Shown: positions 36,496 through 46,378 of the stretch, piece after piece
How positions within the stretch are numbered: the first letter of the stretch is position 1
How the letters are laid out: each line of letters opens with the position of its first letter
Assembly (NCBI GenBank): GCA_947631545.1
Contig: CANRLS010000008.1
Span: 1-46,396, forward strand
Length of the DNA stretch: 46,396 nt
Reading direction: 5' to 3'
From: an uncultured Atopobiaceae bacterium
GTDB taxonomy: Bacteria; Actinomycetota; Coriobacteriia; Coriobacteriales; Atopobiaceae
Program-made: the position numbers and the translations under genes
Notes under the pieces: model-generated
Database searches by the model: none
Seen by the model: the letters and a program-made list of their open reading frames with translations, nothing else
Told to the model about the DNA's origin: nothing

Positions 36496-37221
36496 ACGGG
36501 CGAGCACGGCAGCGTCTTCAAGGCCCTTCTGGGCATCGGCGACGACCTGGCCGAGTTCCTCTGGCCGGCTCGCTGCGTGGGGTGCGACCTTCCCGGGACG
36601 CTTCTTTGCGACGAGTGCCGGGAGGCGCTGCCCGTCATCGACCAGGACTTCGCCTGCCCGCGCTGCGGCGCCCCCTTCGGGTCCATCGTCTGCACGGAGT
36701 GCTCGGCCGAGTGGACCGAGATCGGCCGCACCGTGAGCGCGCTCGTCTTCGACGGCACCGCGCGCCGGCTCGTGACCGTCTACAAGGACGCCCACGAGCG
36801 GCGGCTGGCCCCGATCCTCGCCGGCCTCATCCATCGCGCGCTCGAGGAATCGGGCGCCCTCGCCGGGCTCGAAGCGCCCCTCGACGCCATCGCCTTCATC
36901 CCCTCCACGCCCTCGGCCTACGCGCGTCGCGGCTTCGACCCCATGGAGGGGGTGGCCGCCGAGCTCGCCCCGCTTCTCGGCCTTCCCGCCATCGACGTGC
37001 TGGCCCACGAGGACGTGGGCGATCAGCGCGCCCTCGGCAGGAGCGAGCGGGCGGCCAACGTCCAGGGCAGCTTCGCGGCCATCGGGGACCTCTTCGAGAT
37101 GCGGCTCCTCCTCATCGACGACGTGATCACCACCGGCGCGTCCGCGCGCGCCGCCGCGCTCGCCCTCGCCTCCCACGGGGCGACGGTCGAGGTGTGCGCG
37201 AGCGTCGCTCGCGTGTGGTAG
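36496..37221 (+). CDS. comF: ComF family phosphoribosyltransferase-like protein with apparent ACG start
   Basis: Competence-type ComF protein with an N-terminal zinc ribbon and a C-terminal phosphoribosyltransferase fold ending in LLLIDDVITTGAS. The first ATG/GTG/TTG in frame is GTG 36577, but starting there loses the conserved lead LAEFLWPARC and the first zinc Cys (C27-V-G-C30). The frame is open upstream to a stop at 36463. In that stretch the only placed start-like site is ACG 36496, 4 nt after GGAGGGAGG (36483-36491). I therefore propose ACG initiation, giving 241 aa. A base error in the sequence would be the alternative. Further Cys pairs C38/C41, CPRC and CTEC complete the zinc ribbons. 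Confidence 0.75.
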   Translation, partial: TGEHGSVFKALLGIGDDLAEFLWPARCVGCDLPGTLLCDECREALPVIDQDFACPRCGAPFGSIVCTECSAEWTEIGRTVSALVFDGTARRLVTVYKDAHERRLAPILAGLIHRALEESGALAGLEAPLDAIAFIPSTPSAYARRGFDPMEGVAAELAPLLGLPAIDVLAHEDVGDQRALGRSERAANVQGSFAAIGDLFEMRLLLIDDVITTGASARAAALALASHGATVEVCASVARVW

Positions 37222-37251
37222 CGCTCCCAAAGGGTTCGCGGCATGGCCGCT

Positions 37252-37260
37252 TGGTATAAT
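37252..37260 (+). promoter_or_regulatory. Extended -10 promoter TGgTATAAT of the lipoprotein leader RNA
   Basis: Perfect TATAAT at 37255-37260 with an upstream TGn, the best -10 match in the window. Transcription would begin near 37267, giving a leader of about 320 nt before the lipoprotein ATG at 37587. No consensus -35, as expected for an extended -10 site. Confidence 0.6.
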
Positions 37261-37264
37261 CCGA

Positions 37265-37575
37265 GGGTCCCTTGCCAGGTCTGTGGTTGCGGGCTCTTGC
37301 GCGGCGAACGCTCATGCGCAGGCACCCTAGTCCATGGCAGACGAGGCCCAACGGACCCACGTAAGCCCGGACGCGCGCGTCCGGTCGATCACGGCTCGTC
37401 CTAGGAGTAAGCCGCACCCCCCGCCCATTGGGGCAGGATGGCTCCACGGGGGAGAGGGCCGAAGTGGCGGCACCGCGGTGCCCGAAGCGACGGCCCCGGT
37501 GCGCGAGTGTGGGGTCGAAGACCAGGTCAGCTGGAAGGGACGTCGGGCCGGGGCTTCTGAGGGCCGTTCGGAGGG
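37265..37575 (+). ncRNA. Candidate structured leader RNA (T-box-like or novel riboswitch)
   Basis: About 310 nt of non-coding sequence between a consensus -10 and a solute-binding lipoprotein gene, rich in pairing. GGGTCC (37265-37270) pairs with GGACCC (37353-37358). Inside it GCC/GGC, then AG opposite GA, then GTCTG (37279-37283)/CAGAC (37338-37342) resemble a kink-turn-bearing stem. TGCGC/GCGCA (37298-37302/37316-37320) closes the tip. Next is a perfect palindrome CCGGACGCGCGCGTCCGG (37367-37384), then a domain in which GGGCCG pairs with CGGCCC around a GGCAC-CGCG-GTGCC hairpin. The string GGCGGCACCGCGG resembles the T-box core (GGGTGGnACCGCG), but the specifier loop is not recognisable. 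Class is uncertain. Confidence 0.45.
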
Positions 37576-37586
37576 GAAGGTGGCTC

Positions 37587-38675
37587 ATGGAGGGACGTTC
37601 GCTGGAGCTCGGGGACAAGAGGCGTCCGCTGGTCCTCGCCATGGCCCTGGGGCTCATCCTCGCCTTCGCGCTCGCCGGCTGTTCGAACCCCTTCGAGCAG
37701 ACGAGCGTCGCCGAGGCCCGGGCGGCCCGCGTCGCCGCCATGAGCCCCGCGCTCACGGGCGACGACCTCGTGAGGGAGGGGGCCCTCACCATCGGCCTCG
37801 TCGCCGATGACGGCGCTCCCTACGTGATCCAGGGCGCCGACGGCACCTACACGGGCATCGATCCCGACGTGGGCGCCGCGCTCGCGCAATCCCTCGGCCT
37901 CCAGGCCGATTTCGTGCCCATCGTAAACGACGCCGCCTCGGCTCTCGTGCAGGTCGACGTGGTCATGGGCGTCTCCGCCGAGCAGGCCATGGGCCAGGTG
38001 GTGGCCTCGGACTACGTGGAGCAGGCCACGGGCTTCTTCACCCTGGGCGACGAGCCCACGGTGGCGAGCGCGGACGAGCTCATGGGCAAGACGGTGGGGC
38101 TGCAGGAGGGCTCGGCCTCCCAGCAGCTGCTGAACGCCTCGAACCTGACGATGGAGCAAAAGGGCTACGAGAACCTCGACGCGGCCATGGAGGGCCTGAA
38201 GTCGGGCGAGGTGGACTACGTGCTCTGCCCGGTCTATCCCGGCGCCTACCTGGCCCACGAGATGGGCGGCATCGCCTTCTGCGGCACGCTCGACATCCCC
38301 ACGACCCAAGGGGTCGGCGTGTCCTCGGGCTCGCAGGCCCTCGCCCAGGCGGTGCAGCAGTCGATGGACGACATCCGCGATAACGGCGTGCTCGGCGTGA
38401 TCCTCGCCAAGTGGGTGGGCGACCTCCCGCACCTCACGGCCGAGTCGCAGGTGACGGGCGTCGTCCTCGCCGACAGCAGCCTCGCCGCAGCCGAGCAGGC
38501 GACCCAGCCCGGCAGCGCCGGCACCAACGCGGTGGGCGCCGATCAGCTGCCTGAGGAGACCCAGCCCGGCGAGGAGCAGCCCGACGAGTACACCGAGCCC
38601 ACCGAGCCCGACGCCGACGACGGCGCGGAGGCCGGCGACCAGGGCGAGGGCGCGCCCGCGATCTCGCCGGCCTAG
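37587..38675 (+). CDS. Orphan solute-binding lipoprotein (amino-acid ABC type)
   Basis: Membrane-anchored extracellular binding protein of 362 aa. The signal peptide ends in the lipobox L29-A-G-C32. A family 3 solute-binding domain follows, with GALTIGLVADDGAPYV, a GIDPDVGAALAQSLGL segment and ELMGKTVGLQEGSASQQ, typical of polar amino acid binders. From about residue 310 the tail is Pro/Glu/Thr-rich and probably disordered. No permease or ATPase gene is adjacent, so it serves a transporter encoded elsewhere or a sensing role. GGAGGGGAAGG precedes the ATG. The long structured leader upstream suggests RNA-level control. Confidence 0.87.
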   Translation: MEGRSLELGDKRRPLVLAMALGLILAFALAGCSNPFEQTSVAEARAARVAAMSPALTGDDLVREGALTIGLVADDGAPYVIQGADGTYTGIDPDVGAALAQSLGLQADFVPIVNDAASALVQVDVVMGVSAEQAMGQVVASDYVEQATGFFTLGDEPTVASADELMGKTVGLQEGSASQQLLNASNLTMEQKGYENLDAAMEGLKSGEVDYVLCPVYPGAYLAHEMGGIAFCGTLDIPTTQGVGVSSGSQALAQAVQQSMDDIRDNGVLGVILAKWVGDLPHLTAESQVTGVVLADSSLAAAEQATQPGSAGTNAVGADQLPEETQPGEEQPDEYTEPTEPDADDGAEAGDQGEGAPAISPA

Positions 38676-38738
38676 CGCCATCTGGGTAGAAACCAGCCGT
38701 GGCTCAAGGCCCGCATCCCCCACGACTCGGAGGTAGTG

Positions 38739-39335
38739 ATGGACATCAAAGTGACCGGCCGTAAGATCCGTGTGACCGACGCCCTGCGCGACCGCGTGGA
38801 GCAGAAGGTGGGCGGCGCTCTCAAGGTCTTCGATATCTCGCCCATGACCTGCGACGTCGTGCTGCGCGTCGCCGATTACAAGGGCACCAAGGAGCGGGCC
38901 GTCTGCGAGGTGACCGTGCGCGTGCGCGGCACCGTCGTGCGCGTGACCGCCACGAAGGACGACATCGAGGCCGCGATCGACGAGGCGGCCCGCATGACGA
39001 GCCGCCAGCTCCGCAAGTACAAGACCCGCGTCATCGACCGGCGCCATCGCGTCCACGGGGAGGACCTGCCCTCCGTGGAGCCGGGCACCCCGCTCGCGGA
39101 CACCGTGGCCAAGGGCGAGGAAGAGGCCCTCGAGGACGAGGAGGAGCTCGTCCGCACCAAGTACATCGAGTACACGCGCCTCACCGAGGAGGACGCGCTC
39201 GTGCAGGCCGATCTCCTCGGCCACGACTTCTACGTCTTCCGCGACATGGTCACCGGCAACGTCCACGTGATCTATCGCCGCAAGAGCGGGGGCTACGGCA
39301 TCCTCAAGCCCGAAGAGGAGGAGCCGACGGCTTAG
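38739..39335 (+). CDS. hpf: Long-form ribosome hibernation promoting factor
   Basis: A 198-aa long HPF. The N-terminal RaiA-like domain (1-100) begins MDIKVTGRKIRVTDALRDRV and binds the 30S decoding region. An acidic linker leads to the C-terminal dimerisation domain with TKYIEYTRLTEEDALVQADLLGHDFYVF and a YRRKSGGYGIL end, which joins two ribosomes into 100S dimers in stationary phase. GGAGG sits 5 nt before ATG 38739; a GTG immediately upstream is in frame. It stands alone between the lipoprotein and the second degV gene. Confidence 0.93.
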   Translation: MDIKVTGRKIRVTDALRDRVEQKVGGALKVFDISPMTCDVVLRVADYKGTKERAVCEVTVRVRGTVVRVTATKDDIEAAIDEAARMTSRQLRKYKTRVIDRRHRVHGEDLPSVEPGTPLADTVAKGEEEALEDEEELVRTKYIEYTRLTEEDALVQADLLGHDFYVFRDMVTGNVHVIYRRKSGGYGILKPEEEEPTA

Positions 39336-39371
39336 AATCGGACTCGAAGAAGCGAACCTCCCAGCGCCTCG

Positions 39372-39385
39372 GCCCCGGCCGGGGC
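39372..39385 (+). terminator. Weak GC hairpin after hpf
   Basis: The palindrome GCCCCGGCCGGGGC forms a 5-bp stem with a tetraloop, 37 bp after the hpf stop. No U-tract. Confidence 0.3.
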
Positions 39386-39423
39386 GCGCTCCGAAGAGCG
39401 AAGGACGGAAGAGGTGAGGCACC

Positions 39424-40542
39424 ATGGCCGATGACGTCTCCCCGAAGGGGGATCTCGAAGAGGTGAACCCCGAGGGGCTCGCCGCCGATGCGCCCAAGAG
39501 CGAGGTCAAGGAGGAGGAAGAGCACTCCGGATCCCACGGCTCCACCTACTCCCAGCCGATGTACCACAACAAGCGCAAGGTGAACATCATCGTCGACACC
39601 TGCGGGGACTTCGACCCGCTCGTGGCCCACGCCCTCGATGTGACCATCATCGGCTTCCCCTTCGTGGTGAACGGCGAGGAGCACATCGACGACCTCTGGG
39701 AGACCATGAGCGCCAAGGAGTTCTACGACGCCATGCGCAAGGGCGCCGACGTCTCCACCTCCGCGGTGACGCCCGGGCGCTACCTCGAGATCTTCGAGGA
39801 GGCCGCCAAGAAGGGCGTGCCCACGGTCTACCTCTCCTTCACAGCGGGCCTCTCGTCCTCCATCCGCGCGGCCGAGGAGGCCGCCAACATGGTGAAGGAC
39901 GAGTACCCGGGCTTCGAGATCTACGTCGTGGACAACAAGTGCCCCTCTGCGGCGGCCGAGCTCTTGGCCGTCGAGGCGGTCCACCAGGCCGACATGGGCG
40001 CGAGCGCCAAGGACCTCGTGGCCTGGGCCGAGGAGGCGCGCTACTACATCCAGGGCTACTTCACCCTCGACAACTTCGACGCGCTCGCCAAGGGCGGCCG
40101 CATTCCGCCCCAGGCGGCGGCCATCGGGGGCAAGCTCGACATCAAGCCCGAGCTCTCCTACGACACGGCGGGCGCGCTCTCGCTGAAGCGCATGTGCCGC
40201 GGTCGCAAGAAGGCGCTCCGGGCCATCATCGACGACTTCAAGGACCAGTTCACCGGCGAGTTCAACCTGCCGGTGGCCATCGTCTCCTCCGACGCCGAGA
40301 AGGACGCCGACTTCCTCGAGTCGCTCGTGCGACACGAGCCCGGCTGCGAGGATCTGGCCGTGATCAGGAGCAGCGTGTCGCCCGTCATCGGCTCCCATGT
40401 GGGACCGGGCATGGTGGCGCTCATCTTCTGGGGCAAGGATCGCCGCGAGAAGACGAGCCTCGCCGACCGCATCGCCCGTGCCGTGGGCAAGGGCGGTGCC
40501 GGCTCCGATGCCGCAAGCGCCCGGAACGGAGCTGGCGCGTGA
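39424..40542 (+). CDS. DegV family fatty-acid-binding protein, second copy
   Basis: A 372-aa DegV/FakB-like protein with a 50-residue charged N-terminal extension. The core has NIIVDTCGDFDP, STSAVTPGRYLEIF (the fatty-acid pocket loop), LSFTAGLSSSI, LAKGGRIPPQ, a CRGRKKALRAI helix and SHVGPGM. It is about as long as the copy at 8943 and clearly paralogous (shared KEFYDAMRKGA/KQFYDAMRKGA and GRIP segments), but is not adjacent to it. AGGTGAGG precedes the ATG. The downstream genes (small membrane protein, NYN, HEAT) are closely spaced. Confidence 0.89.
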   Translation: MADDVSPKGDLEEVNPEGLAADAPKSEVKEEEEHSGSHGSTYSQPMYHNKRKVNIIVDTCGDFDPLVAHALDVTIIGFPFVVNGEEHIDDLWETMSAKEFYDAMRKGADVSTSAVTPGRYLEIFEEAAKKGVPTVYLSFTAGLSSSIRAAEEAANMVKDEYPGFEIYVVDNKCPSAAAELLAVEAVHQADMGASAKDLVAWAEEARYYIQGYFTLDNFDALAKGGRIPPQAAAIGGKLDIKPELSYDTAGALSLKRMCRGRKKALRAIIDDFKDQFTGEFNLPVAIVSSDAEKDADFLESLVRHEPGCEDLAVIRSSVSPVIGSHVGPGMVALIFWGKDRREKTSLADRIARAVGKGGAGSDAASARNGAGA

Positions 40543-46302: not shown

Positions 46303-46378
46303 GCCAGCTTAGCTCAGTCGGTAGAGCACCGCTCTCGTAAAGCGGGGGTCATCAGTTCGAGTCTGATAGCTGGCTCCA
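46303..46378 (+). tRNA. tRNA-Thr(CGT)
   Basis: A 76-nt tRNA with encoded CCA. The acceptor stem GCCAGCT/AGCTGGC, D-stem GCTC/GAGC, anticodon stem CCGCT/AGCGG with loop CTCGTAA (anticodon CGT, reading ACG), a 5-nt variable loop and T-arm ATCAG-TTCGAGT-CTGAT are all intact. Discriminator base is T. Confidence 0.97.

Follow-up and report, generated by a model that had tools for sequence, protein, structure and literature searches.

A raiA (ModT) RNA upstream of a solute-binding lipoprotein gene in an uncultured member of the Atopobiaceae

The window analyzed here, a stretch of 46,396 nucleotides from an uncultured Atopobiaceae bacterium (contig CANRLS010000008.1), contains at positions 37270-37539 of the forward strand a complete and ordinary member of a described family of structured bacterial RNAs, raiA (ModT). 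Its identity, its fold as revealed by covariation, the conservation of its promoter and the order of the surrounding genes are established directly in this study. We hold with high confidence the single explanation that joins these observations: a raiA RNA, started from an extended -10 element at helix P1, that adopts the raiA fold and has a likely role in trans. An initial annotation of the locus had predicted a structured non-coding RNA behind a real extended -10 element, and this prediction is upheld by a covariance model, by covariation and by the conserved promoter; its suggestion that the RNA might be a divergent T-box or a new riboswitch class did not survive the analysis described below.

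Identity, distribution and promoter of the RNA

When the whole window was scanned against Rfam, raiA (RF03072) was the sole match at the locus: a full-length alignment on the forward strand covering model positions 1-209, with a score of 122.9 bits against a gathering threshold of 101.3 and an E-value of 7.8e-30. This score was the lowest of the raiA copies among the relatives scanned. A relaxed scan of positions 37200-37640 returned no family besides raiA up to E = 1. The covariance-model scan that the initial annotation had proposed thus identified RF03072 and gave no T-box match at E<=1. raiA is a described bacterial RNA for which both a cryo-EM structure and a knock-out have been reported (PMC11751092, PMC11706538). 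That the locus represents a new, undescribed riboswitch class, a notion encouraged by the presence of a conserved structured RNA upstream of a transport-type gene, is therefore very improbable: the RNA is RF03072, a family already characterized by knock-out and by a cryo-EM structure, with published action in trans.

The interval of approximately 320 nt between promoter and lipoprotein ATG (37587) had been described as free of genes, and we likewise found no plausible gene there; the overlapping open frame at 37334-37807, which has no Pfam match, was rejected as a gene.

The host genome, that of a gut coriobacterium, contains one copy of the RNA. Copies were also found in 37 of the 40 relatives scanned and in 286 of 298 genomes sampled from the class Coriobacteriia, of which the Atopobiaceae are part, and in none of 14 control genomes. 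By HPF gene comparison, the nearest named relatives (82-83% identity) are uncultured Atopobiaceae MAGs from rabbit gut, Collinsella being more distant; raiA RNA was present at all four MAG loci and at the Collinsella locus examined.

The extended -10 element TGGTATAAT, at 37252-37260 on the forward strand, is the only exact occurrence of TGNTATAAT within the window (0.01 expected). Among 76 loci compared, the best -10 element lies mostly 7-10 nt before P1 of the RNA; it is TG-extended in 61 of these, and in 60 it has at least five of six consensus matches, a level attained by 9% of shuffles. The element called perfect in the initial annotation is thus exact, unique in the window and kept across relatives. 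Since its position 7-10 nt upstream is conserved, the transcript should begin at the base of helix P1, with a predicted start at about 37267-37270.

Helices, pseudoknots and covariation

For analysis of the fold, 37 raiA copies were aligned without structure information, the published helices and pseudoknots (PMC11751092) were mapped onto this alignment by way of the Rfam model alignment, and pairs were then counted. The RF03072 model pairs consensus positions 28-30 with 178-180, in conflict with the cryo-EM description; this pairing was excluded from the count, since A28 is assigned to the internal loop of P3 in the cryo-EM paper. Standard pairs occupied 94.9% of cells in the 37 sequences, compared with 83.9% after shuffling and 30-44% when the structure was slid by 1-3 columns. 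Two-sided changes occurred in 34 of 54 pairs (243 cells), and the covariation score was 0.405, compared with 0.190 for shuffled and 0.06-0.11 for slid controls. None of 500 shuffles reached any of five pairing measures, a test inflated by kinship among the sequences, which the slid control retains. Alignment of the leader in relatives, also proposed initially, accordingly yielded compensatory changes in the helices and both pseudoknots. Six unpaired adenines that make tertiary contacts in the published structure (A28, A33, A44, A45, A57 and A58; PMC11751092) were invariant in all 37 sequences. Single-sequence folding energy was no better than that of shuffled sequences (z +0.95) and did not reproduce the raiA fold, so that energy alone lends the structure no support; the structure is supported instead by the covariance model and covariation.

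The individual elements, all on the forward strand, can be placed as follows. Helix P1 (P1a-c) is formed by a 5' strand at 37270-37288 and a 3' strand at 37520-37539, the latter located by model alignment and covariation; 10 of its 12 outer pairs covary, and the window copy contains a G-A mismatch. At the site of the optional stem P2, the model alignment shows a 37-nt insert relative to the Rfam consensus (37292-37328), the length of which differs among relatives. Hairpin P3 (37330-37356; GUCC/GGAC and GGC/GCC) is paired in 99-100% of cells among the 37 relatives, and its loop holds the first strand of pseudoknot 1 (pk-1), GACGAG at 37340-37345, which pairs and covaries with CTCGTC at 37395-37400 through compensatory A-U/C-G and C-G/U-A changes, one pair being A-U in 24 sequences and C-G in 13. 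Six of the seven pk-1 pairs form in the window; the end pair is A-C, a state common to most relatives. Hairpin P5 corresponds to CCGGACGCGCGCGTCCGG at 37367-37384, a perfect 18-nt palindrome with two 9-nt arms, in which all five counted pairs covary. Many inverted repeats, this palindrome among them, are present as noted initially; the kink-turn-like stem reported with them was not confirmed, the published fold having other bends and an E-loop. In pk-2, CG at 37392-37393 pairs with CG at 37516-37517; both pairs form in the window, and compensatory changes occur in relatives (U-A in 26 sequences, C-G in eight, including the window copy, and C-A in three of the 37). The 5' strands of P6 (37413-37417, pairing with 37499-37503) and P7 (37418-37422, pairing with 37448-37452) are adjacent, and the two helices are paired in 100% of cells of the 37 sequences, with eight of ten pairs covarying. 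The P8 arm occupies 37456-37496, its tip (37466-37482) containing the sequence previously taken for a T-box core.

This string, GGCGGCACCGCGG at 37466-37478, is indeed present and does resemble an antiterminator core, the feature on which the proposal of a divergent T-box riboswitch was based. The meaning ascribed to it does not hold: in this GC-rich window the T-box-like pattern, allowing at most one mismatch, occurs at four sites against 3.85 expected, and the P8 tip in which the string sits is variable and missing in many relatives. No specifier loop was reported and no terminator lies downstream. The relaxed scan having found nothing besides raiA, we conclude that the RNA is not a T-box, a reading whose probability, given the full-length raiA match and the covariation that refute it, is close to nil.

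Gene neighborhood and possible roles in cis and in trans

The gene order at the locus, all on the forward strand, is comFC, raiA RNA, solute-binding lipoprotein and HPF/RaiA. The comFC-like gene (36577-37221) is recognized by weak Pribosyltran and zinc-ribbon matches, and a comFC homologue lies close to the RNA in nearly all relatives. The lipoprotein gene expected from the initial annotation begins 47 nt past the RNA (37587-38675) and is identified by Pfam as SBP_bac_3 (E 1.4e-11). The HPF/RaiA ribosome-hibernation factor gene (38739-39335; Ribosomal_S30AE and Ribosom_S30AE_C) is the neighbor for which the RNA family is named. In figures quoted in PMC11706538, common neighbors of raiA RNA are comFC upstream (74%) and raiA downstream (66%); this arrangement, present at the locus, is thus a common though non-obligatory trait of the family. 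Genes for periplasmic-binding proteins are also known as neighbors (PMC11477304), and we accordingly rejected the lipoprotein linkage as a novel association. There are no transporter genes beside the lipoprotein gene in the window, and a tRNA gene (46303-46375; 68.7 bits) lies near its end.

At 72 of 77 loci, a same-strand lipoprotein gene identified by sequence match lies downstream of the RNA at a median distance of 38 nt, distances being approximate since start codons were chosen by a simple rule; at a 73rd locus (G046), reading by eye suggested a divergent SBP-like lipoprotein. A terminator-like element separates RNA and gene in only two of the 77 loci, and no terminator-like site was detected within 36900-39500 of the window. 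In 28 of 31 genomes the window lipoprotein finds its best match genome-wide in the gene next to the RNA, and the linkage persists at loci with an inverted comFC or a distant HPF. Inspection by eye of some families in other orders (e.g. G158 and G136) showed the lipoprotein gene apparently heading an operon, followed by a second SBP, a permease, an ATPase and then HPF. These features would all suit an RNA that in Coriobacteriia acts, or also acts, in cis on the lipoprotein gene, either as its leader or as a riboswitch. We nevertheless consider this unlikely. A cis riboswitch should always accompany the gene it controls and should possess an expression platform, and in one genus of the family (genomes G019, G091 and G204; loci L035, L101 and L100, respectively) the lipoprotein gene has been lost and the RNA persists directly before HPF, which favors a role other than cis control of that gene. 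Inspection of the interval between RNA and ATG revealed no conserved expression platform, its sequence varying freely even within a genus, and phenotypes in two Clostridia were complemented in trans (PMC11706538).

The loss of the gene with retention of the RNA agrees with the trans-acting role known from Clostridium and C. difficile, and by analogy with those organisms, in which trans action was demonstrated, the coriobacterial copy most likely also acts in trans, even though its terminator-less linkage to the lipoprotein gene would also suit a cis leader. For this trans-acting raiA RNA we envision the following course. A sigma-70-type extended -10 element would start transcription at the base of P1, and the resulting RNA of approximately 270 nt would adopt the compact fold typical of raiA, in which P1 forms the closing helix and pk-1 and pk-2 act as locks. 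It would then most likely serve in trans, as an abundant structured RNA during the transition between growth phases, the role demonstrated in Clostridium acetobutylicum and C. difficile; abundance and trans action are taken from the published studies, and we infer the function in the host species along with the read-through and processing that follow. With no terminator after the RNA, polymerase probably reads on into the lipoprotein gene, and the RNA may then be freed by processing or may also remain as a 5' leader. There is a small chance that it has a second role in cis, staying as the terminator-less leader of one orthologous lipoprotein gene in Coriobacteriia; if so, this would link nutrient uptake or sensing to the function of the RNA in growth transition. 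The RNA family is already known and the single locus adds little alone; the class-wide, terminator-less coupling to one lipoprotein gene, together with the genus that lost this gene, provides a natural comparison for understanding the role of the RNA.

Comparison with known systems

Resemblance to the T-box (RF00230) is confined to a short string like an antiterminator core, upstream of a gene for an amino-acid-type binding protein; unlike a T-box, the RNA has neither the corresponding covariance-model match nor a terminator, and the string belongs to the P8 tip of raiA. Published work on C. acetobutylicum and C. difficile shows that raiA RNA accumulates there to very high levels, can be complemented in trans and has effects on sporulation, aggregation or c-di-GMP (PMC11706538, PMC11751092); in Clostridia it is also a stable RNA (PMC11706538). 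Rfam types the family as 'Cis-reg; riboswitch', an assignment ill-suited to the published trans complementation. With raiA/ModT (RF03072) the window RNA shares P1, P3, P5-P8 and both pseudoknots, the contact adenines that are invariant in it and its relatives, comFC upstream and HPF/RaiA downstream, and a SigA-type promoter just before P1. It differs in the solute-binding lipoprotein gene interposed between RNA and HPF, in lacking a terminator, and in a pk-2 that is C-G rather than U-A; the discontinuous GNRA turn is GCG(A) in the class and GAA(A) in the published RNA, and the GCG of the class would still constitute a GNRA sequence.
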